DNA from: Spirochaetales bacterium
GTDB taxonomy: Bacteria; Spirochaetota; Spirochaetia; Sphaerochaetales; Sphaerochaetaceae
Direction: 5' to 3'
DNA length: 35,250 bases
Assembly: GCA_012838895.1 (NCBI GenBank)
Contig: DUOJ01000019.1
Span: forward strand, 1 to 35,250
Shown here in pieces: positions 3,247-28,605 of this stretch (positions are counted from its first letter, which is position 1; each line of letters starts with the position of its first letter). The position numbers and the translations under genes were made by a program. A model generated the notes under the pieces. The model was not told the origin of the DNA. It saw only the letters and a list, made by a program, of their open reading frames with translations, and did no database searches.

Positions 3247-4446
3247 TTAGTTAACTCGCTTACGACTAGCTTTTAGTAGTTCACTGAGTTTAGCGGCCGG
3301 GTCTTTAAACTTAGCCAACATAATCATGGCAGCAATGATATAGGGTTTGTAGGAGGCCTCTTTGTAGAGAGGTTCACGGTAGCGATCAAAGACCGATGCA
3401 GCCACCTCACCCGCTTTACAACTCACACCGGTAATATCGGCAGGAAGGCAGTGCATGTAGAGGGCATTGCCACCTTTGGTCTTGGCCATCAGCTCTTCGG
3501 TACACTCCCAATCCTTAAACTTGGCGTTGTTTAAGAGGCAGCGCTGTTCGAGGCTCCCCAACTCGTCAAAGCGTCCATCGCTCACCATCTGAGTCCTCTC
3601 TTCCATCACGGCATAGGGGGCCCAGCTCTTAGGATAGACGATATCGGCATCGATAAAAGCCTCTTCCATCGAGTAGACCTGTTTATAAGAGCCACCGGTG
3701 CGCTTCACGTTCTCACGGGCTACATCTTCAACTTCACTCATTACGTTGTACCCCTCAGGGTGGGCTAACACCACATCCATCCCGAAGCGGGTGAAGAGTC
3801 CGATAATCCCTTGGGGAACCGAAAGTGGTTTACCGTAAGAGGGGCTGTAGGCCCAACTCATGGCAACTTTCTTCCCCTTCAGGTTTTCAACTCCCCCAAA
3901 GTGGTCAATTACATGGAGCATATCAGCCATCGACTGGGTGGGGTGGTCAATGTCACATTGGAGGTTAATTAGGGTGGGTCTCTGCTCTAATACACCATCG
4001 TCAAACCCCTCTTGGACCGCATCAGCCACCTCCTTCATGTAGGTGTGACCCTTCCCGATATACATATCATCGCGAATACCAATCACATCTGCCATAAAGG
4101 AGACCATATTAGCTGTCTCGCGCACGGTCTCTCCATGGGCGATTTGGCTGGATGCTTCATCTAGGTCCTGAACAGTTAAACCCAACATATTACAGGCACT
4201 GGCAAAGCTGAAGCGGGTGCGTGTTGAGTTGTCTCTAAAGATTGAAATACCTAGGCCGCTATCAAACAGCTTGGGGGAGATGTTGTTCTCCCTCATCTTT
4301 CTCAAGATTTCAGCAACTGCAAAAGTGGCTGCCAGTTCATCGTCACTTTTCTTCCAGGTGTGAAAGAAATCGTTGAGGTACATCCCATCCGACTTTAACC
4401 TCTTCAATTCATCAATCATCTTCTGGATTACGCTCATCTCCTTCAT
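3247..4446 (-). CDS. ygeW: YgeW-family carbamoyltransferase (ATCase/OTCase superfamily)
   Basis: FRDNSTRTRFSFASA, SQIAHGETVRETANM, LQCDIDHPTQSMADM, MSWAYSPSYGKPLSVPQGIIGL, ALYMHCLPADITGVSC. AGGAGG precedes the ATG. Confidence 0.95.
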   Translation of the reverse strand: MKEMSVIQKMIDELKRLKSDGMYLNDFFHTWKKSDDELAATFAVAEILRKMRENNISPKLFDSGLGISIFRDNSTRTRFSFASACNMLGLTVQDLDEASSQIAHGETVRETANMVSFMADVIGIRDDMYIGKGHTYMKEVADAVQEGFDDGVLEQRPTLINLQCDIDHPTQSMADMLHVIDHFGGVENLKGKKVAMSWAYSPSYGKPLSVPQGIIGLFTRFGMDVVLAHPEGYNVMSEVEDVARENVKRTGGSYKQVYSMEEAFIDADIVYPKSWAPYAVMEERTQMVSDGRFDELGSLEQRCLLNNAKFKDWECTEELMAKTKGGNALYMHCLPADITGVSCKAGEVAASVFDRYREPLYKEASYKPYIIAAMIMLAKFKDPAAKLSELLKASRKRVN

Positions 4447-4490: not shown

Positions 4491-4520
4491 ATTATAACAT
4501 GAGGGTGGAAGGTAAGTCTA
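4491..4520 (-). promoter_or_regulatory. Predicted sigma70 promoter of ygeW
   Basis: Minus strand TAGACT - 18 bp - TATAAT (complement of 4515-4520 and 4491-4496). Confidence 0.55.
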
Positions 4521-4524
4521 CCTA

Positions 4525-4543
4525 TTTGTTGCAGTTTGTTGCA
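4525..4543. repeat. Direct repeat TTTGTTGCA-G-TTTGTTGCA (10-bp period), candidate activator site for ygeW
   Basis: Read directly; 4 bp upstream of the predicted -35. The same 8-mer pair occurs at 15789-15806. Confidence 0.6.
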
Positions 4544-4551
4544 TAAGGGAG

Positions 4552-4570
4552 GGGGCCCGTTTAGGGCCCC
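4552..4570 (-). terminator. Candidate terminator downstream of xdhD
   Basis: GGGGCCC-TAAAC-GGGCCCC on the minus strand, just after the xdhD stop; weak U-tract (TCCCTT). Confidence 0.5.
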
Positions 4571-4574
4571 ACTA

Positions 4575-7454
4575 TTAGGTAATCTTACCCATCTCCCTTA
4601 ATATCTTTTCAGGAGTGATAGGCCAAGAGCGAATCCACACCCCAACAGCATCGTAGATAGCGTTGGCAACGGCTGGTGCTGCTCCGTTGGTGGCAATCTC
4701 ACTAATTGACTTAGCTCCAAAGGGACCAAACTCATCGTTCTCATCAATTAAGACCGCCTTAAAGTCTGCTGGAGCTTCGCTAATCATCGGCACCCCATAG
4801 TTGGTGAAATTGGCAGCAATACAGCGCCCCTCTTCATCGAGGGCCATATCCTCATAGAGGGTGTGACCGAGCGACTTTTGGGCCGCCCCATACATCTGCG
4901 TTAAAGCTAGTTCGGGGTTAATTGGCGTTCCTGCATCTTGCAAGGCGTAGAACTTATCGACCCTAATGGCTCCCGTCTTGACGTTGACCGCCACCTGGGC
5001 AAAGTGGGCCCCGTAGGGGATGGCTGCATCTTCGGTGGCAAAGGAGCCGTAGCCCACTAGTTGCCCGCGCCCGAGTCCCGAGACTGCTTGGTGGATTAGC
5101 TCACCATAGGGGAGAACTTTTCCACTCTTCTTCGAGACAACCTCACCAGGAGCTTGGAGGCTAAGGTCTTCGACCGCCTCCTCCATCTGGAGAGCTGCTT
5201 CGGCTAACACCTTCTCTTTGAGGTTGAGGGCCGCCTTAAGGGTAGCCCCTCCCGAGAAGTAGGTGCCACTTGAGGCGTAGGCGCCGGTATCGAACATGGT
5301 GTTATCGGTATCGCCGGAGAGGATTGAAACTTTGTCCATCTCGACACACATCACCTCGCTAACACACTTCACGCTGATGGTATCGAGGCCAGTACCAATG
5401 TCAGCCCCGCCGCTGTGGACCATAAAGGTTCCATCGGTATTCATCACCACGTCACACATACTGTGGTCGAGTCCAGGCAGGCCTGATCCTTGTTGAATCA
5501 TGGCAAACCCTTTGCCAACCTTCCAGTTGGGGTCTTCACAAACCTCTTTTTTACCCCAATCAATCATCTTAGCCCCTAAGTCGAGAGCTTTCCTTAAGCC
5601 ACAGCTCCCAACTGGCACTGGTGTCCCTTCACGCCCTTCGCCGAGGCTCTTTAGAATCTCCAACATGAAGCCCCGCTCGACGTGGTTGATCTTAGCCATC
5701 TCTAAGGGGTCAACCTTGAGAACAGAGGCCATCTCAGCGAGACAGGTCATCAAGGCAAATGAGCCTTTGGGAGCGCCATACCCTTGGTAGGCCCCTGTGG
5801 GAGGGATATTTGTGTAATAGGTGGTCACATCAAAGGCAATATTGGGACAGTTGAGGAGTGGCAATGTTTTTGAACAGGCATTCATAGGAACGGTTAAACA
5901 GTGGTTACCGTAGGGACCAGTGTTGGCCCGCACATCCATATAGACTGATGTTAATTGGCCACCCTTCTTCGCCCCCATCTTAACGGTGATACGCATCGGA
6001 TGACGGGTACTGTTGGCGATAAACTCCTCTTCACGGGTGTTGCGATAGTAGATGGGACGACGGGTAATCCAAGTTGCGTACCCAGCTACATCCTCTACCA
6101 AGATATCTTGTTTGGAGCCGTAGCCTCCCCCCACTTTCTCTTTAATCACCCTAATTTTGTTCTCAGCGATTCCACACACCCGGGCCACAATGCGACGGGT
6201 GTGGAACGGCACCTGCGTTGAGGCGTGAATCACTAAGCGGTCGTTATCGATCTTGGTGTAGCAGAGGTGCACTTCGAGAGGCGTACACTGAATTTGACTC
6301 GTCTGGTAGGTGCGCTCAATCACCTCATCGGCTTCTGCAAACCCCTTCTCAATATCTCCAATAGCTCCGGTGGCTCTTGAGGCAATATTGCGACGGTTGT
6401 CCCCATGGAGGGGGAAGGGGTAGATAATCTTCCCTTCGCGAGGGTCGACTCCCTTATTGTACTCGGCTAACCCCTCAGGCTCTCCACTGAGATACTCGGC
6501 AGCCCCATTTTGGACAATGGGAGCCCCTTCAGCCATAGCCTCTTCGACGGTAAAGATTGGTTTTAAGACTTCGTACTCGACCACTATCTTCTCGCGTGCT
6601 GCAATAGCTTGCTCTTCAGTTTCAGCTACAATGGCGGCTACCCGGTCGCCCACGTGTCGCATCTTCCAGTTGAAGAGGCGTCTGTCGTAAGGAGAGGGTT
6701 CAGGGTTCCCCTGACCGGCTGACATATAGAAGACATCGGGGCAGTTGGCTGCTGTTATAATAGTCACCACTCCATCCATCTTCTCAGCTTCACTTGTATC
6801 GATCTTGGTGATATAAGCGTGGGCATAGGGGCTTCTAAGGAGCACCATTGAACAAGCGTTGGGGTCGACGCGGTCTTCGACATAAGACCTCCACCCAGCC
6901 ACCAGTTGGCGCCCATCAACTTTGGGTTTCACCTTCCCCACATATTTAAGGTGGTCCCTAAATTCGGGGGCGATGGTTGAGCTATATTTGCCACTTCTGA
7001 GTTTCTCTTTAGCCAACTCAACAGCTAAGTAGTAGTGCTCATAACCGGCATCGCGGATGAAGATTCCAGATAGGACCTCTGCTACATCGCTCCGACTTGC
7101 ATTGGGCTTCTTCTCGAGGAGCCAAGTTAACAAGAGGGCGGCAGCAGGGGCATTGTAGGCCGACTGGACCACTCCTGCATCAATCATCGCCTCTTGGACC
7201 ACATTGAGCTCTCTCCCAGTAGCGAGCGAGTCGGGGGTCCTAATAGTGGCCCCTTCCGCCTCAGCCGCTAACAATAAGTTAGAGTAGAGGGGACGGTCGT
7301 TAAAGATAACTGTATCGCTTCCAGCAAACCCCTCCCCGTCATCACTGTCGCGCACGGCAAAGTGTCCTAGAGAGAGCAACATCTTCCTTAGCGTCTCGTG
7401 GGGCGCCACGTTAACTTCTACATTTTTTCCATTGACTATACAGCGGACAATCAT
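4575..7454 (-). CDS. xdhD: XdhD-like molybdenum hydroxylase (xanthine dehydrogenase family), with a cysteine-free N-terminal 2Fe-2S-like domain
   Basis: PEPSPYDRRLFNWKMRHVGDRVAAIVAET, VKEKVGGGYGSKQDILVEDV-type MoCo motif, GAYQGYGAPKGSFA, HSGGADIGTGLDTI, GPFGAKSISEIATNGAAPA. Start 7454 (MIVRCIVNGK) preceded by AAAGGAGG and overlapping the ygfM stop; the ORF track starts at 7487. Confidence 0.93.
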   Translation of the reverse strand: MIVRCIVNGKNVEVNVAPHETLRKMLLSLGHFAVRDSDDGEGFAGSDTVIFNDRPLYSNLLLAAEAEGATIRTPDSLATGRELNVVQEAMIDAGVVQSAYNAPAAALLLTWLLEKKPNASRSDVAEVLSGIFIRDAGYEHYYLAVELAKEKLRSGKYSSTIAPEFRDHLKYVGKVKPKVDGRQLVAGWRSYVEDRVDPNACSMVLLRSPYAHAYITKIDTSEAEKMDGVVTIITAANCPDVFYMSAGQGNPEPSPYDRRLFNWKMRHVGDRVAAIVAETEEQAIAAREKIVVEYEVLKPIFTVEEAMAEGAPIVQNGAAEYLSGEPEGLAEYNKGVDPREGKIIYPFPLHGDNRRNIASRATGAIGDIEKGFAEADEVIERTYQTSQIQCTPLEVHLCYTKIDNDRLVIHASTQVPFHTRRIVARVCGIAENKIRVIKEKVGGGYGSKQDILVEDVAGYATWITRRPIYYRNTREEEFIANSTRHPMRITVKMGAKKGGQLTSVYMDVRANTGPYGNHCLTVPMNACSKTLPLLNCPNIAFDVTTYYTNIPPTGAYQGYGAPKGSFALMTCLAEMASVLKVDPLEMAKINHVERGFMLEILKSLGEGREGTPVPVGSCGLRKALDLGAKMIDWGKKEVCEDPNWKVGKGFAMIQQGSGLPGLDHSMCDVVMNTDGTFMVHSGGADIGTGLDTISVKCVSEVMCVEMDKVSILSGDTDNTMFDTGAYASSGTYFSGGATLKAALNLKEKVLAEAALQMEEAVEDLSLQAPGEVVSKKSGKVLPYGELIHQAVSGLGRGQLVGYGSFATEDAAIPYGAHFAQVAVNVKTGAIRVDKFYALQDAGTPINPELALTQMYGAAQKSLGHTLYEDMALDEEGRCIAANFTNYGVPMISEAPADFKAVLIDENDEFGPFGAKSISEIATNGAAPAVANAIYDAVGVWIRSWPITPEKILREMGKIT

Positions 7455-8296
7455 TGGGCACCTCCTTTCGAAATGGCATCGAGGCACTGTTTATAGAGCT
7501 CTGCCACACTGGCAGTCAAGATATATTTTTTGTAGGCAGCGCTACCGGTTATATCGTCAACAAGGACTAGGTCTTGGGCCGCTTGGGCAGCAGCATCTTC
7601 AACTGTTGGGTAGCGACCCTCCATAATCCCATTCTCAACCTCAATTAGGCGCACAACCCCACTCCCCTTAATAGCAGCTGCAATGCGCACATCGTGGGGA
7701 GCATCACTTGAGATGTCGGCCCCCAAGGCGATTGTTACGGCAGCGGGACTCTGCATAGTACGGGCATAGCGCAATGAGGCGACAAAGCGCTTAGGTTTGT
7801 TAAGGACTATTTTCAAGATGAGTGAACCCTCAAAGTGCTCCTCAAAAGAGTGGTACTCCCGAATAGGGATATTTTCTTCACCATATTTGCCATCGCTGGC
7901 GATATCGCCCAGGATAAGGCGTGCTTTAGCGGCAATTAGGGTTGGTGCAAGGTAGGAGTCGTCCCTTCGAAGGGCAATATTTCCCCCAATTGTCCCCATA
8001 TTACGTCTTGTATAGGAGCCACAATAGAGGAGTGCCTCTTTTAAGTAGCGGGGGACGAGTTCACTCTCAAGTGCCTCTTGGAAAGTGGTGGTAGCCCCAA
8101 TTGAGACTATCCCCTTCTCTTCTTCTATCCCAGAGAGGTTCAACCCCTTGAGAGAGACAACTTTCTGAGGATTTATAAGCGACCCTAACCTTAGAATCTC
8201 GGTCCCTCCCCCAATGAAGTGGGTCCCTTCACCACCATCATGTAGTGCCCCTAACGACTCTTGGGGTGATGCAGTACGAATGAACTCACCAATCAT
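7451..8296 (-). CDS. ygfM: FAD-binding subunit of molybdopterin dehydrogenase (YgfM-like)
   Basis: FIGGGTEILRLGSLINPQKVVSL, RRNMGTIGGNIALRRDDSYLAPTLIAA. Start 8296 preceded by AAAGGAGG. Confidence 0.85.
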   Translation of the reverse strand: MIGEFIRTASPQESLGALHDGGEGTHFIGGGTEILRLGSLINPQKVVSLKGLNLSGIEEEKGIVSIGATTTFQEALESELVPRYLKEALLYCGSYTRRNMGTIGGNIALRRDDSYLAPTLIAAKARLILGDIASDGKYGEENIPIREYHSFEEHFEGSLILKIVLNKPKRFVASLRYARTMQSPAAVTIALGADISSDAPHDVRIAAAIKGSGVVRLIEVENGIMEGRYPTVEDAAAQAAQDLVLVDDITGSAAYKKYILTASVAELYKQCLDAISKGGAQ

Positions 8297-8307
8297 ACTT
8301 CCTCCTT

Positions 8308-9684
8308 TCACTCGGCTTTTGCGAGCATTTTCTGGCTAACACCATTGGCTTTCTCAAAGAGTTCTTCCTCCTCAATGCCAATGAGTTGCCCTTTATCAAC
8401 AACAACTTGTCCATTCACGATGGTGTAGTCGGTATTGTGATCGTCTCCACAGAAGATAAGGGCCGCTACTGGATCAGAGAGGGCCCCGGCATAGGGGAGA
8501 CGCTGTACATCAAAGATTGCCATATCGGCAGCCCACCCCTCTTCCAACTTGCCAACTTTGCCAAAATTGAGCATCTTAGCCCCATTTTCAGTCGCCATTT
8601 TGAAAACCTGGCGGGTGGTGAGAGCCGCTGCTCCGTTTAATACCCGTTGGAGGAGGAGGGCGTTACGCACCTCACCCAACATGTCGGAAGAGTCGTTGGA
8701 GGCTGAGCCGTCAACGGCAATCCCCACATTGATTCCCAGTGCCAACATCTCAGGGACGCGGCAAATGCCACTTCCTAACCTCATATTCGAAGAGGGGCAG
8801 TGGGCCACTGAAGAACCCGCTTGGGCTAAAATTTTAAGTTCCTCATCGTTGAAGTGGATTCCATGGGCATAGAAGACATCGGGACCAATCAATTCACACT
8901 CTTCCATTAAAGCTAGGGGGCGCACCCCAAACATCTCAAGACAAAAGTCATTCTCATCAAATGTTTCAGCAAGGTGGGTATGGAGTTGTACCCCATACTT
9001 CCGTGCTAGACGGGCACTATCCCTCATAATCTCTTTAGTCACTGTAAAGGGGGAACAAGGAGCTAAGACTACTTTGTGCATCGCCAGTGGCGAGGGGTCG
9101 TGAAATTGTTGGATGACCCGTTCACTGTCAGCTAAAATTTTATCATCGGTTTGGACCACCGAATCGGGGGGGAGCCCCCCATCCTTTTCACTTAAACTCA
9201 TAGAGCCACGTGTTGGACTGAACCTGATTCCCAACCTGTCGGCAGCCTCAAACTGGGTCGCCATTAAATCCCCATCAAACCCTTGGGGATAGAGGTAGTG
9301 GTGGTCGGTAGTTAAAGTACACCCCGTCTTCAGTAACTCTCCCATCGCCAAGAGAGAGGAGTAGTAGACCCCCTCATTGTCAATATTTTTCCACACATTG
9401 TAGAGGAATCTGAGCCAATCGAAGAGTTCGGCATTTTGAACCGCCGGGTGGTTTCTTGTCATCGTCTGGAAGAAGTGGTGGTGGGTGTTGACCAACCCAG
9501 GGATAACGACATGCTTTGAGCAGTCGATTACACGGGTGGCACTTTTATAATCCATCTTCCCCTCTAGGTCGATCTTTTTCACCACTCCATCAGTGATGAG
9601 CATATCGGCTCCCTTAATGGTCTCTTTAGCCGTATCGGTCATTAAGCAGTAGATGTTTTTGAGAATTACTGAATGGTCATACAT
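8308..9684 (-). CDS. Amidohydrolase, 8-oxoguanine deaminase-like (TrzA/AtzA/Pa0142-type family)
   Basis: VIPGLVNTHHHFFQTMTRN, HTHLAETFDEN, FYAHGIHF, VAHCPSSNMRLGSGICRVPEML, VDGSASNDSSDML. Substrate assigned by family resemblance and context. Confidence 0.75.
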   Translation of the reverse strand: MYDHSVILKNIYCLMTDTAKETIKGADMLITDGVVKKIDLEGKMDYKSATRVIDCSKHVVIPGLVNTHHHFFQTMTRNHPAVQNAELFDWLRFLYNVWKNIDNEGVYYSSLLAMGELLKTGCTLTTDHHYLYPQGFDGDLMATQFEAADRLGIRFSPTRGSMSLSEKDGGLPPDSVVQTDDKILADSERVIQQFHDPSPLAMHKVVLAPCSPFTVTKEIMRDSARLARKYGVQLHTHLAETFDENDFCLEMFGVRPLALMEECELIGPDVFYAHGIHFNDEELKILAQAGSSVAHCPSSNMRLGSGICRVPEMLALGINVGIAVDGSASNDSSDMLGEVRNALLLQRVLNGAAALTTRQVFKMATENGAKMLNFGKVGKLEEGWAADMAIFDVQRLPYAGALSDPVAALIFCGDDHNTDYTIVNGQVVVDKGQLIGIEEEELFEKANGVSQKMLAKAE

Positions 9685-9688
9685 GTTT

Positions 9689-9772
9689 TCATCTCCTAAT
9701 TATAAATCTCCCAAGGTACTGGATAAGACTTTTGTTTTGCTTGTCGCTACTGACAAAAGGTCTCTTCGCCAC
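9689..9772 (-). CDS. Unannotated small ORF, 27 codons: MAKRPFVSSDKQNKSLIQYLGRFIIRR (GTG start)
   Basis: AAGGAGG-CCAGTT-GTG on the minus strand; the TGA stop overlaps the Shine-Dalgarno region (AGGAGATGA) and lies 4 bp from the amidohydrolase ATG. Too short for the ORF track. Confidence 0.4.
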   Translation of the reverse strand: MAKRPFVSSDKQNKSLIQYLGRFIIRR

Positions 9773-9812
9773 AACTGGCCTCCTTGTTGAATCGCAAAAC
9801 TATCGCTCAGTC

Positions 9813-9915
9813 AAAAAAAAAGACCCGCGAAGCCTCTCTTAGAAACCACCCATCCATGATGGGAGAGGAGCTCATGGCGGGGAAGGAGCTTGGCACATCG
9901 CTGTGCCAAGCCCTT
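9813..9915 (-). ncRNA. Structured intercistronic RNA region (nested hairpins ending in U9): intrinsic terminator/attenuator or cis-regulatory RNA
   Basis: Minus strand: GCTTGGCACA-GCGA-TGTGCCAAGC hairpin (9888-9911), then CCCGC...CCTCTC(CCCATC-ATG-GATGGG)...GAGAGG...GCGGG followed by TCTTTTTTTTT. Confidence 0.55.
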
Positions 9916-9943
9916 AGCAAATAAATCATACATCAGAAATGGC

Positions 9944-11170
9944 CTATTTTCCACCTTTTTTTTCTAGACTAAGGGGGAGCATCGCGTAAAACGCAGCACA
10001 GATTTCTAAGTCATCAACTCTAGTAATCTCGTTGGGGGCGTGGGCCTGAACCTCATCGCCAGGGCCAAATCCAATTGCGGGGATTTTATGGCGCCCGGTG
10101 GTTGCCACTAAGTTGGTACTGAAAGTCCACTTATCGACGACTGGTTTTTTACCAAAGAGGGTCTCGTAGGCATCAACCCCGGCTTGGACAAAGAAGTGGT
10201 CTTCTTCGGTTTTCCAGGTGGGGAAATAGAGCTCTTGGCTATAATCTTTCTTGGTCCACCCCACCTTCTCATACATCGGCATCTCAACCACGATATCTTC
10301 GGGATTATCACCAGTCGCTTTTGAGACAACGTCTCGCACTTGGGCTATTGCAAAATCGGCATCCTCGCCCCAGGTTAAGCGTCGGTCGAGGTAGAGCATA
10401 GCGTAGTCGGGGACGGCACACTGCGAAGGGCCCCTCACATCCATTTGAGAGACGGTGACGGTCCCTTTCCCTAAGAAGTTGTCATCATCGGGGGGGAGCT
10501 CCTCATTGAGTTGCTCAATCGCTAAGGCAGCTCTAGCCGCTTTATAGGCAGCACTAACGCCCCTCTCAGGAGCACTACCATGACACGAAATTCCCTTTAA
10601 GATGGTCCTAATCTCCATCCTCCCCCTCTGCCCACGGTAGAGTTGGCAACTGGTTGGTTCGGTTGAGACCACTAAATCGGGTTTGAAGTTCTCCTCTTCA
10701 ATGAGGTACTTCCAACACATTCCATCACAATCCTCCTCCATAACGGTGAAGGTGAAATAGACGGTGTACTCGCCACCATATCCCAACTCTTTCAAGATCC
10801 GCCCAGCGGTAATCATCGAGGCGGCACCCCCCTTCTGGTCGCTGGTTCCTCTTCCATAGACTAGGCCATCTTTAATCTCTCCACTAAAGGGGTCAAACTT
10901 CCAGTTGTCACGGTTTCCCACCTCAACGGTGTCTACGTGGGCATCGATTGCCAATTTCTTGGGGCCGTTACCAACCTTACCAATGACACTCCCTAGCCCA
11001 TCGATTCGAATATCTTCGAAGCCGGCCTCCTCAAGTAGCGTTACAATTAAGCGGCATACATCCTCTTCTTGGCTACTGTAAGACTTAACCTTCACCAACT
11101 TGGAGAGGTTCTCGGCAGTGTAATCACGATACTTGGCGGCCAACTCTAAAATCTTCTTGTCCATTCCCAT
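9944..11170 (-). CDS. ygeY: YgeY-family (selenium metabolism-linked) M20-type hydrolase
   Basis: LAIDAHVDTVEVGNRDNWKFDPFSGEIKDGLVYGRGTSDQKGGAASM, FTVMEEDCDGMCW, STEPTSCQLYRGQRGR. Confidence 0.92.
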   Translation of the reverse strand: MGMDKKILELAAKYRDYTAENLSKLVKVKSYSSQEEDVCRLIVTLLEEAGFEDIRIDGLGSVIGKVGNGPKKLAIDAHVDTVEVGNRDNWKFDPFSGEIKDGLVYGRGTSDQKGGAASMITAGRILKELGYGGEYTVYFTFTVMEEDCDGMCWKYLIEEENFKPDLVVSTEPTSCQLYRGQRGRMEIRTILKGISCHGSAPERGVSAAYKAARAALAIEQLNEELPPDDDNFLGKGTVTVSQMDVRGPSQCAVPDYAMLYLDRRLTWGEDADFAIAQVRDVVSKATGDNPEDIVVEMPMYEKVGWTKKDYSQELYFPTWKTEEDHFFVQAGVDAYETLFGKKPVVDKWTFSTNLVATTGRHKIPAIGFGPGDEVQAHAPNEITRVDDLEICAAFYAMLPLSLEKKGGK

Positions 11171-11197
11171 TTCTTACTCCTTCTCAATCGTTATCCC

Positions 11198-12538
11198 CTA
11201 ATGGGGTTTTATTGTATCAACTTGATGCCACACTCGGTGGGCAACTTCACGCGCCTTGGCGTAGATCTCTTCAACATCAAAATCGAACTGGCGCTCCTTC
11301 ATCACAAACTTCCCCTCCACCATCACCGACTCGACGCAGTTACTGCTGGTTCCCCACACAAGGTGGTTGGCTGCATTACCATCGACCCACGGGGTGGGAC
11401 TCTGGTAGTCTAAGAGGGTAATATCGGCTTTATAGCCCGCTTCAAGGCGCCCAAATTTATCTTTAAAATAGGTCTCCAACACCTCGTTGCCACGGGAGAG
11501 CATCGCCACAAAGTCGCCTGGCCACCAAGGGCCTCCCACATCTTTATGCTTAAAGAAGGCAATCTTCAACTCTTCAAACATATTGCCCCCGCACCCATCG
11601 GTTCCTAAAATGGAGCGCTCCACCTCTCTAAGGTTGGTGCAGTAGCCAACATGGTTGTTCATATTGCTTCTTGGGTTGTGGGCTAAGAAGCCACGACGGG
11701 CATTGAGGAGTTCAACCTCTTTCTCACTCAAATAGAGACCATGCACTAAGAGGCTCTTATCAGAGAGGAGGCCAAACGAATCGAGCCTCTCCATAATATC
11801 GAGGTGGTAGTGGTGGTGGCTGTGGACACTGTCGTACTTATCTTCAGCGACGTGGAGGTGAATGCCCCTCTGTGTCGTATCACACGCCTCTTTGAGAAGT
11901 TCCAACCCCCTATTGGGAATAGTGAAAGGGGCGTGTCCCCCAATCATCGCTTCAACTAGCGGTTTTTTTCCACTTTGCCACTCTTTGTCGACACTCTTGG
12001 CAAACTCGATGTTCTCTTTGACCCCTGCTTTGACCTCCTCCATACCGCCATTACGGTCGGTAACCTCGTAGCAGGTCATCCCCCTTAATCCAACCTCCCG
12101 CATTCCACGGGCGATGGTCTCAAGGGATCCTCCAATAAAGGAGGGGCTGGCATGGTGGTCGATGCAACTCGTCGTTCCCGCCTTAATTGCATCAATTGAG
12201 CAGATTAGAGAGCTGTAGTAGAGAGCCTCTTCGTCGAGCCCCCTGTCTAGGCGCCACCACCACTCTTTTAAGACTTGGATAAAGTCATTTTGTTCTCCAG
12301 CACTAATCAGCATCCCCCTTGAGAGACCCGAATAGTAGTGGTGGTGACCACACACAAGACCCGGAATAAGGGTCTTACCCGTGGCATCAATAACCTTAGC
12401 ACCCCTATAGGAGGGGGCTAAATTCTCCCCTACAGCAACTATCATGTCACCTTGGATTACAACATCACGCCCCTCTTCAACCGAAAAGGGAGGTTTTGTT
12501 TGGACAACCCTAGCATTGGTAAAAATTGTAAATTCCAT
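11198..12538 (-). CDS. ssnA: SsnA-family putative aminohydrolase
   Basis: LIPGLVCGHHHYYSGLSRGM, CIDHHASPSFIGGSL, HLHVAEDKYDSVHSHHHYHLDIMERL, HNPRSNMNNHVGY. Start 12538 (MEFTIF) preceded by AAGGGGG. Confidence 0.92.
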   Translation of the reverse strand: MEFTIFTNARVVQTKPPFSVEEGRDVVIQGDMIVAVGENLAPSYRGAKVIDATGKTLIPGLVCGHHHYYSGLSRGMLISAGEQNDFIQVLKEWWWRLDRGLDEEALYYSSLICSIDAIKAGTTSCIDHHASPSFIGGSLETIARGMREVGLRGMTCYEVTDRNGGMEEVKAGVKENIEFAKSVDKEWQSGKKPLVEAMIGGHAPFTIPNRGLELLKEACDTTQRGIHLHVAEDKYDSVHSHHHYHLDIMERLDSFGLLSDKSLLVHGLYLSEKEVELLNARRGFLAHNPRSNMNNHVGYCTNLREVERSILGTDGCGGNMFEELKIAFFKHKDVGGPWWPGDFVAMLSRGNEVLETYFKDKFGRLEAGYKADITLLDYQSPTPWVDGNAANHLVWGTSSNCVESVMVEGKFVMKERQFDFDVEEIYAKAREVAHRVWHQVDTIKPH

Positions 12539-12548
12539 CACTACCCCC

Positions 12549-15500
12549 TTATGCTTCAACAGCCCCCAATAGATAGGCGTGGTTTAAAATAATCTCCTCA
12601 ATTATAGAGGTCACCTCTTCTGGAAGTTCGCTGTCGAGCTTTCCGTCACTCTCGATGGGAGCCTTTGTAATCTCCCCCTCGTAGCGCACCAACACCTCCC
12701 CCTCTTTGAGGAAGAAGCCACTATTTTCAGAACTTTCAAAATCGTCGAGGCGGCTGAAGAGGGTAAATTTATCTTTGTAGGGTGAACCGCTCCAAGGACA
12801 GAAGGTGGTACAGTTACCACACTCGTTACAAAAAGCATCTAAGTGGACAATTTGGAAGGGGTTCTCAAAGAGGTCCCAGCGGTAGCGCATGTCGATGGCG
12901 ACATTGGCCCGGTTGGGACAAACTTCGACACATTTATCACACACATAGGAGCACTCGAGACAGCGAGCCGCCTCAATCTTAGTAAAGGTGTCGACACTCT
13001 CCCCCGCTTGAGCTCCCTTTACAAAGTACCCCTTCTTATCGCGAATTGTCTTAAAGAAGGCGTTCTCTTCCACCTCTATCTCGTAGGAGTCGATCTCTTC
13101 GTCGAAGTGGTCGTGTTCGTCTTCTTCAGGTGGACCTAAAATTGAGTCGATAGCCGCTTCAACTGCACTACGCGCCGCTGCAATACAGCGCACAACAGTG
13201 GAGGGGCCACTTTGGGCATCCCCTATCACATAGACCCCTGGCTGCCGACTCTCAAAGGTTTCGCTGTTCACAATAGGCCACCCCTTCTCATCAACAGGGA
13301 GGCCAAACCAAGTTAAACTTTGGGAGTCGACCTTCTCGCCAATGGCAGTAATAAGTGAATCAACTTGAAGGGTAATTGTCTCATCTGTAGCGACTGGGGA
13401 ACGCCGATTAGAGGCATCCTTTTCACCTAAAGCCATTTTACGACAAACAAGGGTCCCATCTTCATTAAAAGACTCTGGGTTGGTAAGGAAGTAGAACTTA
13501 ACCCCATCTTGGAGGGCATTGTGGTACTCTTCACGATCGGCAGGCATCTCATTTTCAGTGCGCCGATAGAGGACAGAGACCTCTTCAACTCCCTCGACTC
13601 TAATGGCAGCGCGTGCCCCATCCATAGCTGTATTGCCACCACCCACAACAACCACCCGTTTGCCTAGGTTGAGACGCTCTTTGTGGCGATTGAATTGGGC
13701 TAAGAATGGGAGTGAGGGGTAGATGCGACTACGATCCCCCGTTAAGGGGATAATATTGTCAACTTCAGCCCCAATAGCGTAGAAGATGTGGTCAAAGCCT
13801 TTCTGCTTTAAAGCCTCAATTGTCACCTCTTCACTGGGGGTAGAGAACTTAAACTCAACACCGTGCTTAGCGATAAAATCGATATCACCCTGGAGGGCAC
13901 TAGCAGGGAAACGGAACGAGGGGATAACGTAGCGAGTCACCCCACCAGCATCCTTCTCTCGCTCAAAGAGAGTCACAACGAAGCCGGAGCGGGCTAAGAA
14001 GTAGGCTGCCGAGAGGCCGGCCGGACCAGCTCCTACAACAGCGGCTTTAAATGAAGATTGCTCAGGCCTCTCCCACCGCTTAACATACTCAGCAAAACCC
14101 TCTTCAACAGCAATTTTTTTCATCTCCCTAATTTGGACCGTCCCCTCATAATCGAGGCGGGTACAGTGGTATTGGCACTGATGGTCACAAATATAACCGG
14201 TAAGGTTGGGCAGAGCGTTGGTCTCGTAGATTACCTCAAGGGCATCAGCGTAGCGCCCCTGACCCACCAGGTAGATGTAGTCGGGGATATTTTGATGGAT
14301 GGGACACGCTTCGATACAGGGGGCGACGTAACAGTCGGTGAGGGGGAGTCTCCCCTCCACTTCAACCTTCTCATGACCCCTGTAATCTTTGTGAAGATCT
14401 TCCCTAGTGAGGCTACTTTCAGCGAGAGCCTCAATCTTATTAAGATCAATTGTTTTAACACCCCAACTCTCACTCCTCTCTTCTAAGAGTTCTACCATCT
14501 GTTTTAGGCGCACATACCCCCCCGGTTTAAGGAGGTCGGTCGCCAAAGTGATAGGACGAATTCCACACTCGAAGAGGTCTACAATCGTAGATGCAGTCGC
14601 CCCACCACTATAGGAGATGGGGAGTGTTCCTTTAAACTCTTTAGTGAGGAGGGCCCCCACTGCAACACTTAAGGGGAGGAGAGCGCGCCCCGACATATAC
14701 ATCTCATCACCGGGGAGAAAGCCTTGGTCGTTAACCGAACCGAGGGTGTTGGTGAGTTTAACCCCAAAGCCGAGCCCCTCTCGTTGACTGAGAGCCACTA
14801 GGCGCTCCAACATTGGAATAGCGTCCCCATATTGGAGGTCAACCTCAAAGGCTTGTGGCTTAAGGGTGATATAGTTGTACCCTAACTCATCGAGGGTAGA
14901 GCGCACTCTATCAAAGCCGAGGAGGGTTGGGTTCAATTTAACAAAGGTATTGAGTTTTTTCTTACTCAACATATAGGAGCAGATTGCCTCAATCTCTTTA
15001 GGGGGACAACCGTGCATCGTACTGAGGGTCACTGAAGAGCAGATCTTGGGTGATATTTTCTTAGAGAGCCCCTTAAGGCGCCCCTCCATCCCCTCCCATT
15101 CGGTCCCATTAAAGAGGCTCCCTTCAGCTAAAATCGCTTCGAGGGAATCTAAGTGACCTTTAAAAGAGGTGTTTTTACTCGAGTCGATCATCGAATCGAT
15201 AAAGGTTTGCATCTTAGGTGTTAAAATCCCCTCAAGGTTGTAACCAACACTCATATTGAAGATAAAAGAGGGGGTGCCATCAAATTTGGGCTCTAAAAGG
15301 GCCTCTAATAGGTGGAGTAAAACCCACGCTTTGGCATACTCATCGTAAGCTTTGGGGAGGGTGTACTCACTCGACCACTCGACGTTGTACCCCTCATCGC
15401 GCACATCGATACACGGTTTATCAATCTCAAGTTCGTCGAGGATTTGAACCGTCTTAAGTTCAATAAAGCGTCCACCCACTAAATAACTAGCCACTATATT

Positions 15501-15701
15501 TTGGGCTAATTGGGTGTGAGGTCCGGCAGCTGGCCCCAACGGGGTGGCACATTTTTGACCAAAGACCTCAATGGCTGTCTTCCCATTATTTTTATAAAAT
15601 TGGTCTTTATGGAGACCAAAAATCTTACCACATTGGCGGTATTCACCAAAAATCCGAGAGAGTAATTCTTCAAAGGGGACACTTCGCATTATATCTGACA
15701 T
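12549..15701 (-). CDS. ygfK: YgfK-family putative selenate reductase / NAD(P)H-linked Fe-S flavoprotein subunit
   Basis: Dihydroorotate-dehydrogenase-like N-terminus (LGPAAGPHTQLAQNIV), GltD-like core (AAVVGAGPAGLSAAYFLARSG; VVVGGGNTAMDGARAA), C-terminal ferredoxin-like Cys motifs (CSYVCDKCVEVCPN; CNECGNCTTFCPW). Confidence 0.93.
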   Translation of the reverse strand: MSDIMRSVPFEELLSRIFGEYRQCGKIFGLHKDQFYKNNGKTAIEVFGQKCATPLGPAAGPHTQLAQNIVASYLVGGRFIELKTVQILDELEIDKPCIDVRDEGYNVEWSSEYTLPKAYDEYAKAWVLLHLLEALLEPKFDGTPSFIFNMSVGYNLEGILTPKMQTFIDSMIDSSKNTSFKGHLDSLEAILAEGSLFNGTEWEGMEGRLKGLSKKISPKICSSVTLSTMHGCPPKEIEAICSYMLSKKKLNTFVKLNPTLLGFDRVRSTLDELGYNYITLKPQAFEVDLQYGDAIPMLERLVALSQREGLGFGVKLTNTLGSVNDQGFLPGDEMYMSGRALLPLSVAVGALLTKEFKGTLPISYSGGATASTIVDLFECGIRPITLATDLLKPGGYVRLKQMVELLEERSESWGVKTIDLNKIEALAESSLTREDLHKDYRGHEKVEVEGRLPLTDCYVAPCIEACPIHQNIPDYIYLVGQGRYADALEVIYETNALPNLTGYICDHQCQYHCTRLDYEGTVQIREMKKIAVEEGFAEYVKRWERPEQSSFKAAVVGAGPAGLSAAYFLARSGFVVTLFEREKDAGGVTRYVIPSFRFPASALQGDIDFIAKHGVEFKFSTPSEEVTIEALKQKGFDHIFYAIGAEVDNIIPLTGDRSRIYPSLPFLAQFNRHKERLNLGKRVVVVGGGNTAMDGARAAIRVEGVEEVSVLYRRTENEMPADREEYHNALQDGVKFYFLTNPESFNEDGTLVCRKMALGEKDASNRRSPVATDETITLQVDSLITAIGEKVDSQSLTWFGLPVDEKGWPIVNSETFESRQPGVYVIGDAQSGPSTVVRCIAAARSAVEAAIDSILGPPEEDEHDHFDEEIDSYEIEVEENAFFKTIRDKKGYFVKGAQAGESVDTFTKIEAARCLECSYVCDKCVEVCPNRANVAIDMRYRWDLFENPFQIVHLDAFCNECGNCTTFCPWSGSPYKDKFTLFSRLDDFESSENSGFFLKEGEVLVRYEGEITKAPIESDGKLDSELPEEVTSIIEEIILNHAYLLGAVEA

Positions 15702-15753
15702 GGCGTTAACTTCTCCTTAAATAGGGGGCTCCAAAGGGGAACCCCTCCCCTCT

Positions 15754-15781
15754 ATTGTAAAACAGATTCTTCATAAGTCAA
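15754..15781 (-). promoter_or_regulatory. Predicted sigma70 promoter of ygfK
   Basis: Minus strand TTGACT - 16 bp - TACAAT (complement of 15776-15781 and 15754-15759). Confidence 0.55.
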
Positions 15782-15788
15782 TCGCTAT

Positions 15789-15806
15789 TGCAACAATGTG
15801 CAACAA
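15789..15806. repeat. Direct repeat TGCAACAA-TG-TGCAACAA (10-bp period), candidate activator site for ygfK
   Basis: Read directly; 7 bp upstream of the predicted ygfK -35. Matches the pair at 4525-4543 in opposite orientation. Confidence 0.6.
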
Positions 15807-15966
15807 CAAACTAGAATTTTATATAACCTAATTATCTTTGGTTTAGCTCAAATTAAATCTGCTTTTTTGTGTTATCTGGCGAATAATTATTTTACTTATT
15901 TACTTTTCAACAAGGTGCATGGTAATCTTGATTAAATTATTAAAGAGGTTGAAAAGGGAGTTGCCA

Positions 15967-17175
15967 ATGCGCTTTAGTTATCTTTGTAATGAGTGTAATC
16001 GTGAATATAAGACAGACGAAATTTTCTACACCTGCCCCGCTTGTAGCGGCACTGAAAAGAGCGGTGAGTTTCGTAAAGGGAATGTGATTGTCAAACTCAA
16101 CGATGAAGATTTAGAAGAACTGAGGAAAGAGAAGCACTATCCACTCTTAGAGCTACTGCCCTATCCCATCCCCAATATGGGGGCTTTTCCAGTGGGTCCT
16201 ACCCCCCTCTCCAAGCCGTTTCGTCTCGCTAAAAAGTACGACTTAAAGCACCTCTTACTTAAACTCGATAACCTCCTTCCATCGGGCTCTTTCAAAGATC
16301 GTGCTAGTCAGATGGTGGCTGCCCAAGCCATTTACCATGGAGAGAAGAAGATTGCTCTCGCTTCAACCGGCAACGCCGGAGCAGCGATGAGTTGTGCCGG
16401 TGCTGCCTATGGTTTAGATATTGTCCTCTTTGTCCCCGAGAGTGCCCCTGTCAATAAACTGATGCAAAGTATCTTGTACGGGGCAACTGTCGTCCCCGTT
16501 AAAGGGAGTTACGACGACGCCTTCGCCCTCTCCCTCTATTACACGGCCAACTATGGCGGTATAAACCGCAACACCGCCTACAATCCAATGACCGTTGAGG
16601 GGAAAAAGAGTGTCGCTCTTGAGCTCTTTCTTCAACTTAAAGGGGACCTTCCTGATGTAATTTATGTCCCCGTTGGTGATGGGTGTATCTATGCAGGAGT
16701 TTGTAAAGGCTTTCTCGACCTTAAAAGGGCCCACCTAATTGAGAAGGTTCCTCAAGTGGTTTGCGTCCAATCAGAGAGTTCGGCGGCAATTGCCAAAGCT
16801 TGGGAGAGTGGGATACCGGCAACAGTTGAGGCGACAACTTTAGCTGACTCAATCAGTGTCTCCTCCCCTGCGAATGGAAGGATGGCGCTACGCTACCTCA
16901 AAGAGACAGCTGGATGGGCCACCATCGTCTCAGACGAAGAGATTCTAGCAGCCCAAGATGAGTTAGTTAGGGAGAGTGGCACCTTTGTTGAGCCAGCTGC
17001 CGCTTGTGCTTGGGCCGGGATGATTAAAGATCGCCCTAAACTCTCTGATGAGACTAAGGTGTGTGTTTTACTCACCGGAATGGGTTTTAAAGATATGGGA
17101 GTTTATGAGGGAAGGGTGCAGATGCCTAAGGCAATTGAAAACTCGAGCCAAGCAGTCGATGAGCGGTTTGGTTGA
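15967..17175 (+). CDS. Threonine synthase-like fold-type II PLP enzyme with an N-terminal zinc ribbon
   Basis: CNECNREYKTDEIFYTCPAC zinc ribbon; LLPSGSFKDRASQM PLP lysine; ALASTGNAGAAMS. AGGGAG precedes ATG 15967; the ORF track starts at 15919. Confidence 0.8.
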   Translation: MRFSYLCNECNREYKTDEIFYTCPACSGTEKSGEFRKGNVIVKLNDEDLEELRKEKHYPLLELLPYPIPNMGAFPVGPTPLSKPFRLAKKYDLKHLLLKLDNLLPSGSFKDRASQMVAAQAIYHGEKKIALASTGNAGAAMSCAGAAYGLDIVLFVPESAPVNKLMQSILYGATVVPVKGSYDDAFALSLYYTANYGGINRNTAYNPMTVEGKKSVALELFLQLKGDLPDVIYVPVGDGCIYAGVCKGFLDLKRAHLIEKVPQVVCVQSESSAAIAKAWESGIPATVEATTLADSISVSSPANGRMALRYLKETAGWATIVSDEEILAAQDELVRESGTFVEPAAACAWAGMIKDRPKLSDETKVCVLLTGMGFKDMGVYEGRVQMPKAIENSSQAVDERFG

Positions 17176-23992: not shown

Positions 23993-24667
23993 ATGTTAGA
24001 AAAATCAGATTTGGAAGTACTGGAGGAGAACCTCCCCTTTTGGAAGGGGGCCACTCCAGCTGAAAAAGAGATCTTGACCCAAGGGACAATGCGCTTTACC
24101 CACGCTAAAGGGACTATTGTCCACGAAGACCGCAACAAATGTACCGGCCTCTTATTAGTCGTCTCGGGTCAACTTAGAATCTATATTATCGGCGACTCTG
24201 GAAAACAGATCACCCTCTACCGCCTTTTTGAACGCGATGTGTGTGTCCTCTCCTCCTCCTGCATGATTCGTAACATCTCGTTTGATGTCCACATTCAAGC
24301 AGAAAAAGAGACCACAATGCTCCGCATCACTACCGACAGCTATCTCGAAGCTGGTAAGAGTAACCCCCAGATTCCAAAGTTTACCAATGAGATTGTCTCT
24401 TCACGCTTTAGTGATGTGATGTGGGTGGTGGAACAGATTGTCTTTATGAGCCTCGACCGCCGCTTGGCGATGCACCTTCTTGAGCAGGCGGCTATTGCTT
24501 CCAGCGACTCTTTTGCTATAACCCATGAGGCGATTGCCCACGACTTGGGAAGTGCCCGTGAGGTAATTACCCGGATGTTGAGCCGTTTCCAAGAGGATGG
24601 GCTAGTCTCCCTCTCTCGAGGAGGGATAACCCTCCTCGACAGTAGTGGCCTCTACGCTCTAACCTAG
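23993..24667 (+). CDS. Crp/Fnr family transcriptional regulator
   Basis: Cyclic-nucleotide-binding-like N-terminus and C-terminal HTH (ITHEAIAHDLGSAREVITRMLSRFQEDGLVSLSRGGITLLD). Confidence 0.9.
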   Translation: MLEKSDLEVLEENLPFWKGATPAEKEILTQGTMRFTHAKGTIVHEDRNKCTGLLLVVSGQLRIYIIGDSGKQITLYRLFERDVCVLSSSCMIRNISFDVHIQAEKETTMLRITTDSYLEAGKSNPQIPKFTNEIVSSRFSDVMWVVEQIVFMSLDRRLAMHLLEQAAIASSDSFAITHEAIAHDLGSAREVITRMLSRFQEDGLVSLSRGGITLLDSSGLYALT

Positions 24668-27487: not shown

Positions 27488-27612
27488 AGAATCACTTTAA
27501 CAACCCTCGCTATTGTGGTCAATCGATAAGTGTATAGTTGACCAAGCTTAGCCAAAAGATTAGATTAAATTAAGATATTAAGAAAATTTATTTCAAAGGA
27601 GTGGTAATCCGT

Positions 27613-28605
27613 ATGACTTCATACAAAGATCTTGGTCTGGTGAACAGCCGAGAAATGTTCGCTAAAGCTATGAAGGGTGGCTACGCTGTGCCTGCCTACA
27701 ACTTCAACAACATGGAACAACTGCAAGCAATCATTCAAGCTTGTGTTGCGACGAAGTCCCCCGTTATTTTACAGGTCTCTAAAGGGGCTCGCGACTATGC
27801 CAATATAAACCTGCTCAGGAATATGGCCAAAGGGGCCTCTGAGTATGCCAAAGAGTTGGGGTGTGAGATTCCCATCGTTCTCCACCTAGACCATGGAGAC
27901 TCTTTTGAGACTTGTAAAGAGTGTATCGACAACGGCTTCTCATCGGTTATGATTGACGGTTCACACTTCTCTTACGAGGAGAATATTGCCCTTACTAAAA
28001 AGGTAGTTGAGTATGCCCACAAGTTTGATGTCACCGTTGAGGGTGAGTTGGGTGTATTAGCTGGAATTGAAGACGAAGTCTCTGCCAAGCACTCAACCTA
28101 CACTGAGCCCGACGAGGTAATCGACTTCGTTAAGCGCACCGGGGTCGACTCATTGGCTATCTCAATTGGGACAAGCCACGGAGCCAATAAATTTAAACCC
28201 GAGCAGTGTCAGCGTAACGAAGAGGGGATCTTAATTCCCCCTCCCCTACGCTTCGACATCTTAGAGGAAATTGAGAAGAGACTCCCCAATTTCCCCATCG
28301 TCCTCCACGGCTCCTCTTCGGTCCCCCAAGAGTACGTTAAAACTATCAACGAATTTGGTGGAAAACTGGTCGACTCGATTGGAATCCCTGAAGAGCAGTT
28401 GCGTCGTGCAGCCAAGTCTGCTGTTTGTAAAATCAACATTGACAGCGATGGACGCTTGGCAATGACTGCTGCGATTAGGAAAACAATGGCTGAAAAACCG
28501 GGCGAGTTTGACCCTAGAAAATATCTTGGACCAGCTCGTGAAGCTTTAAAGAAGATGTATATCCACAAAAATGAGAATGTATTGGGTTCAGCAAATCAAG
28601 CCTAA
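27613..28605 (+). CDS. fba: Class II fructose-bisphosphate aldolase
   Basis: AVPAYNFNNMEQLQAIIQA, IVLHLDHGDSFETCKECIDNGFSSVMIDGSHF, GELGVLAGIEDEV, LHGSSSVPQEY. Confidence 0.93.
   Translation: MTSYKDLGLVNSREMFAKAMKGGYAVPAYNFNNMEQLQAIIQACVATKSPVILQVSKGARDYANINLLRNMAKGASEYAKELGCEIPIVLHLDHGDSFETCKECIDNGFSSVMIDGSHFSYEENIALTKKVVEYAHKFDVTVEGELGVLAGIEDEVSAKHSTYTEPDEVIDFVKRTGVDSLAISIGTSHGANKFKPEQCQRNEEGILIPPPLRFDILEEIEKRLPNFPIVLHGSSSVPQEYVKTINEFGGKLVDSIGIPEEQLRRAAKSAVCKINIDSDGRLAMTAAIRKTMAEKPGEFDPRKYLGPAREALKKMYIHKNENVLGSANQA

Follow-up and report, generated by a model that had tools for sequence, protein, structure and literature searches.

The window analysed here, a 35,250-nucleotide stretch of a Sphaerochaetaceae (Spirochaetota) genome, contains two short direct repeats, one upstream of ygeW and the other upstream of the ygfK operon. 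We consider it likely, with a probability of about 0.8 as judged from sequence comparisons, that both repeats act as operators in a purine/urate-catabolism regulon and that they are bound by a 323-residue transcription factor encoded on another contig (C67) of the same genome, in which a helix-turn-helix (HTH) domain is followed by a degenerate WYL region and a WCX domain. The analysis supports a new regulon, a new operator and a new candidate regulator. The candidate belongs to an established class of transcription factors but differs in its diverged sensor region, its direct-repeat operator and its metabolic role. Little is known about how the anaerobic reductive urate pathway, which bears on urate removal in the gut and on gout, is regulated; a regulon, an operator and a candidate regulator, all directly testable, can now be proposed for spirochaetes.

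The direct repeats and their candidate regulator

Read directly, the repeat on the ygeW side is TTGTTGCA-GT-TTGTTGCA (4526-4543 of the + strand) and that on the ygfK side is TGCAACAA-TG-TGCAACAA (15789-15806). Along the direction of the gene that it precedes, the putative operator of ygeW (4526..4543, + strand) reads TGCAACAAACTGCAACAA and is in the reversed orientation, while that of ygfK (15789..15806, - strand) reads TTGTTGCACATTGTTGCA and is in the forward orientation. An earlier sequence-only reading of this DNA had reported a paired motif upstream of both genes, and our inspection confirms it, the exact 18-mer being confined to these two places. A genome-wide search, which that reading had suggested as a check, gives no sign that the paired motif is widespread: in the 1.73 Mb source genome (85% complete) there are two exact copies of TTGTTGCA-N2-TTGTTGCA, solely 5' of ygeW and 5' of ygfK. 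Within the window, matches to the 18-mer with up to three mismatches comprise the two exact copies and one intragenic copy with two mismatches, for a chance expectation of 0.27, and the only intergenic TGTTGCR half-sites (4 of 11) are those that compose the two repeats.

The repeat is also found in relatives. Among 23 further spirochaete loci, 19 have it in front of ygfK, in constant orientation and differing from the 18-mer at 0-3 positions; it is also present upstream of ygeW, in the orientation opposite to that at ygfK. The comparison of orthologous upstream regions proposed in the sequence-only reading thus recovers the repeat before both genes, and the opposite orientation relative to transcription, which had also been described, is conserved. 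The 10-bp periodicity of the half-sites is kept as a strict register, since at the examined loci the TGTTGC units are separated by four bases in 27 cases and by no other spacer between 0 and 15 bases. The part of the earlier description that has to be revised is the half-site: the pairing is conserved, while the 8-mer is not the conserved unit, its leading T being merely preferred (about 50-75%). Taken together, the alignments indicate that the repeats represent a conserved operator, TGTTGCR-N3-TGTTGCR, in a strict 10-bp register. The pattern TGTTGCRNNNTGTTGCR occurs 222 times in the 61 family (Sphaerochaetaceae) genomes, as compared with two occurrences of a reversed control pattern.

Two matches, at 27703-27720 of the window and at C18:27012, fall within coding DNA and were for this reason not accepted as operators. 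The former is a look-alike with two mismatches within a gene of 334 codons (27601-28605), and genes of loci L056 and L058 share it; since it recurs in these genes, it seems to be a protein-coding coincidence and a pitfall for motif scans.

The sequence-only reading had expected the regulator to be encoded outside the window, as is the case for the best candidate, found elsewhere in the genome on contig C67. A site at C67:2154 is directly 5' of a gene for 323 amino acids (L162 1168-2139) and has two mismatches to the 18-mer and one to the 17-bp consensus; a relative of this gene in genome G010, with 59% identity, has an exact site in front as well. The gene is single-copy and present in 53 of the 61 family genomes. 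An exact site is found in 52 family genomes with the regulator and absent from one, the corresponding numbers without it being three and five (Fisher p 5e-5), and among 219 Spirochaetia genomes outside the family, sites are carried by 12/12 with a full-length ortholog (36 sites in all) and by 12/207 without one (17 sites; counts 12/0/12/195, Fisher p 1.4e-13); the genomes are related and both p-values therefore overstate independence. Across five families, the presence of the regulator tracks that of the site, and the ygfK genes of six genomes lacking a full-length ortholog (G005, G012, G029, G041, G045 and G057) have no site.

The domain organization of the candidate is in part well defined. 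The HTH domain (PF08279, HTH_11) is matched in the protein itself with 29.2 bits (cut-off 25) and in 20/20 orthologs. The WCX domain (PF25583) is matched in 19/20 orthologs, with a best E-value of 5e-8; in the candidate itself it scores 23.0 bits in a protein search (cut-off 23.9) and 26.0 bits in a genome search. Among the profile matches to the PDB in the WCX region are 8tp8 and 9pfq, annotated as DeoR-family/WYL proteins. The regulator is homologous over its full length to L315, which has both a WYL and a WCX domain (26% identity, E 6e-24; profile probability 99.4%), and PF13280, the WYL model, reaches 12.6 bits, below the cut-off, in the G059 ortholog. The middle of the protein is thus best called a putative degenerate WYL region. 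In the HTH, HRSTxSRY is conserved without exception across 20 orthologs, which would be consistent with the invariant TGTTGC of the proposed operator.

The regulator gene appears to be among its own targets. A site with at most one mismatch is present within 150 bp in the own promoter of 32 of 59 regulator orthologs, as compared with none for the reversed control and 0.005 for shuffled sequences. In the near clade this site begins 8-12 nt after a TATACT -10 box and lies over +1, while in distant orthologs its position varies or no clear site is seen. The own operator of the near clade (upstream regions of L162 and L242-L260), located 3' of the -10 box, mostly has TGGTGC instead of TGTTGC as its second half-site, and this may be a tuned-down autoregulatory site. 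In genus g7, the regulator promoters (L294, L293) have a layout unlike that of the near clade, with two tandem operators 22 bp apart.

The remaining targets were surveyed at 81 sites with flanking DNA, and a gene start is close by at 76 of them. The recurrent targets are carbamate kinase (15), ygfK (14), ygeW (11), an NCS2 xanthine permease (4), an AzgA-like permease (4), an XDH-like fusion (3), and ygeX, ygeY and adenine deaminase (two each); some sites precede genes without a clear purine role. The names of carbamate kinase, pbuX, YgeX and YgeY were checked with NCBIfam; the remaining names come from clustering with genes of the window or from inspection by eye. In the reductive urate pathway, urate is converted via yanthine to 2,3-diaminopropionate and pyruvate (PMC12507026). 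The predicted functions of the targets fit this pathway together with purine uptake and the recovery of ATP from carbamoyl phosphate, and the downstream genes make up a putative purine/urate-catabolism regulon. The earlier label of a purine-regulon operator is right, because the site fronts not only ygfK and ygeW but also carbamate kinase, ygeX, ygeY, XDH, adenine deaminase and purine permeases. The features by which comparative genomics recognizes a regulon are all found here: the site fronts orthologous operons, the regulator co-occurs with it, and the gene of the regulator carries it too. Within the genome of the window, the regulon as found comprises the ygfK operon, ygeW, arcC on contig C99 and, on contig C67, the regulator itself.

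Promoter geometry and alternative readings

The predicted promoters of ygeW (TAGACT-18-TATAAT, with a TG before the -10 box; 4491..4520) and ygfK (TTGACT-16-TACAAT; 15754..15781) have the -35 and -10 boxes that the sequence-only reading gave them, both on the - strand, and both are sigma70-like. The -35 box of ygeW is weak and the ygfK promoter is already near consensus. The 8-mer repeat is separated from the -35 box by 5 bp at ygeW and 7 bp at ygfK; the operator centre is near -50 and the site abuts the -35 box, the position expected for a class II-type activator. The -10 hexamer starts 29-31 nt after the end of the repeat both at ygfK, with a forward repeat, and at the ygeW, xdh and ygeY-like promoters, with a reversed one. 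A second class, comprising 12 of the 15 carbamate kinase promoters and some azgA promoters, has a forward repeat that ends 7 nt before the -10 box. At promoters of the arcC type, an extended -10 element follows 7 nt after the second half-site, TTGTTGCA, and there is no good -35 box. The two classes differ by 22-24 bp, or about two helical turns, and the protein would therefore sit on roughly the same face of the DNA. A riboswitch or attenuator was rejected for ygfK and ygeW because the repeats are upstream of the promoter.

In the mechanism that we propose, the protein would bind just upstream of -35 at ygfK and ygeW (centre about -50), touch RNA polymerase and activate a sigma70 promoter; at carbamate kinase it would bind between -35 and -10, where a contact like that of the mycobacterial activator PafBC could replace the missing -35 box; and at its own gene it would cover +1 and repress. 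The presumed signal is a purine or an intermediate of the pathway, bound by the WYL-like region. Activation, which we regard as probable at ygfK and ygeW, is favoured by the constant distance upstream of -35, by the weak -35 box of ygeW and by the absence of a good one at arcC; the overlap with +1 points to autorepression at the regulator gene. The model in full is tentative, with the odds somewhat against all of its parts holding together: a WYL/WCX regulator with a diverged pocket would sense a metabolite of the purine/urate pathway instead of single-stranded DNA, bind head-to-tail repeats, activate in two modes separated by about two helical turns (upstream of -35 at ygfK and ygeW and, at carbamate kinase, in a PafBC-like manner within the -35/-10 spacer), repress its own gene at +1, and replace the sigma54 control of Clostridiales and apparently of E. 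coli.

Several observations weigh against an operator bound by this protein, or against parts of the mechanism. The WYL domain PF13280 is not matched by Pfam in the regulator or elsewhere in its genome, 27 of the 59 regulator genes lack a clear site, and genome G015 has the regulator and no exact site. Conversely, G018, G033 and G077 have sites and no detected regulator; the assemblies of G033 and G077 are incomplete, and the regulator is present in two other genomes of the genus of G018. No head-to-tail repeat is known to be bound by the WYL-WCX proteins studied so far. The sign of regulation as activation follows from the position of the site only.

The last point bears on a different use of the same operator and regulator, in which the protein is a repressor throughout and blocks all of these promoters until released by a purine inducer. 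A site over +1 at the regulator gene or between -35 and -10 at arcC is in a classical repressor position, and the ygfK promoter, being close to consensus already, is also in line with repression. However, a site upstream of -35 at a fixed distance, as seen at ygfK, ygeW, xdh and ygeY-like genes, is usual for an activator and unusual for a repressor, and the weak or missing -35 boxes of ygeW and arcC likewise speak against repression, which we consider unlikely as the general mode. It is also conceivable, with a distinctly smaller likelihood, that the operator is real and is bound by another factor, the HTH/WCX protein being merely one more target. The regulator gene is not adjacent to purine genes here, the three genomes with sites and no detected regulator would be accommodated, and a gene identified by eye as GntR-type is transcribed divergently from arcC next to a site in G022 and G078. 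Against another binder are the regulator's co-distribution with the site across five families and the recurrence of autoregulatory sites in many genera; the GntR-type gene is at none of the other examined loci, and there was no exhaustive search for a second co-distributed factor. As for a chance coincidence, the motif is short and nothing further can be said in its favour, while the three matches found in the window (0.27 expected), the 222 against 2 in the family and the conserved position relative to promoter elements make it exceedingly improbable. The reading in which the HTH-(degenerate WYL)-WCX protein binds the repeats is thus the one that we retain.

Two other genes were set aside as regulators: the GntR-type gene near arcC, because of its absence from the other loci examined, and a CRP-like gene of the window (23993-24667), because CRP-family sites are inverted repeats. 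In G022 and G078 (L171 and L174, around 4001), the GntR-type gene is divergent from carbamate kinase across a common operator.

Genes of the window and neighbouring loci

The genes downstream of the two repeats, named with NCBIfam models, are all on the - strand. The target ygeW, encoding a knotted carbamoyltransferase, is at 3247..4446. The other target, ygfK (12549..15701), is the first gene of an operon that runs from 15701 down to 4575 and continues with ssnA (11198..12559), a ygeY family hydrolase (9944..11170), an 8-oxoguanine deaminase family amidohydrolase (8308..9684), the FAD subunit of a molybdopterin oxidoreductase (xdhB/ygfM-like, 7451..8311) and, as the last gene, its Mo/Fe-S subunit (xdhD-like, 4575..7487). 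The ygfK of the window shares 73% identity with its counterpart in a Sphaerochaetaceae metagenome-assembled genome, followed by further Sphaerochaeta and Spirochaetales records, and the source genome was assigned to this family on that basis.

The gene divergent from ygfK (15919-17175), which has the intergenic region in common with the operator, encodes a threonine synthase-like enzyme of the pyridoxal phosphate (PLP) fold; in relatives the divergent gene (for example, L221 2425-3897) is a cysteine synthase-like PLP-fold enzyme, and there are about two dozen loci for each type. At the other end of the window, an NCS2-type permease truncated by the contig start (1-974) is convergent with an adenine deaminase gene, ade (1018-2763), which has no site in front. 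In G065 and G080, azgA and ade homologs are divergent with a single operator between them. In G002 (L163, around 4001), a site is near a gene that resembles, by eye, the BMP-type binding protein of a nucleoside ABC transporter and that has no NCBIfam match at the threshold used.

Comparison with known systems

Operators in which tandem half-sites are about one helical turn apart near -35 are those of Spo0A, PhoB/TorR, RpaB and the SARP type. These regulators are from other protein families, and none is linked to the TGTTGCR repeat described here.

The same pathway genes are controlled differently elsewhere. In Clostridiales, orthologous genes, including dpaL and pbuX, have been assigned to the sigma54 activator DioR (PMC6615313), and a binding site for RpoN lies between ygeV and ygeW in E. 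coli (PMC8743547). Sigma54 is also encoded in the genome of the window. However, a search for the -24/-12 element TGGCAC-N5-TTGCW gave 15 window matches (with up to two mismatches) versus 13 expected by chance and none at the ygfK or ygeW promoters, and sigma54 control was thus not found for these two genes. The sequence-only reading had anticipated a control logic other than sigma54, and the sigma70-like promoters without a -24/-12 match support it: in the DioR and RpoN cases the promoters are of the sigma54 type, with a sigma54 activator in Clostridiales, whereas here they are of the sigma70 type with a direct-repeat operator. If this is true, one pathway would have been rewired between sigma54 and sigma70 control.

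WYL regulators other than the WYL/WCX proteins have been linked to phage defence. In the openly accessible literature, we found no purine catabolism under a WYL/WCX regulator, which is not proof of absence. The closest likeness is to two activators with the same domain order. PafBC, a mycobacterial HTH-WYL-WCX activator, acts at promoters of the form tTGTCRgtg-N8-TannnT (PMC5656591), and its -26 motif resembles the arcC-type half-site near an extended -10 element. It is a heterodimer that is activated by single-stranded DNA in the DNA damage response and does not bind promoter DNA without RNA polymerase (PMC11804915). In contrast, the system described here has one gene, a paired direct repeat, sites that are also upstream of -35, and metabolic targets. 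DriD, the HTH-WYL-WCX activator of Caulobacter, senses single-stranded DNA in the DNA damage response as well and, like the present candidate, has sites at varied promoter positions, one of them at its own gene; its site is a 20-bp pseudopalindrome (PMC12340889), whereas the site proposed here is a direct repeat before purine genes. Both PafBC and DriD thus answer DNA damage via nucleic-acid ligands (PMC11804915, PMC12340889), and a purine-catabolic member, if confirmed, would reveal a metabolic branch of the WYL/WCX regulators together with a concrete hypothesis for its ligand.

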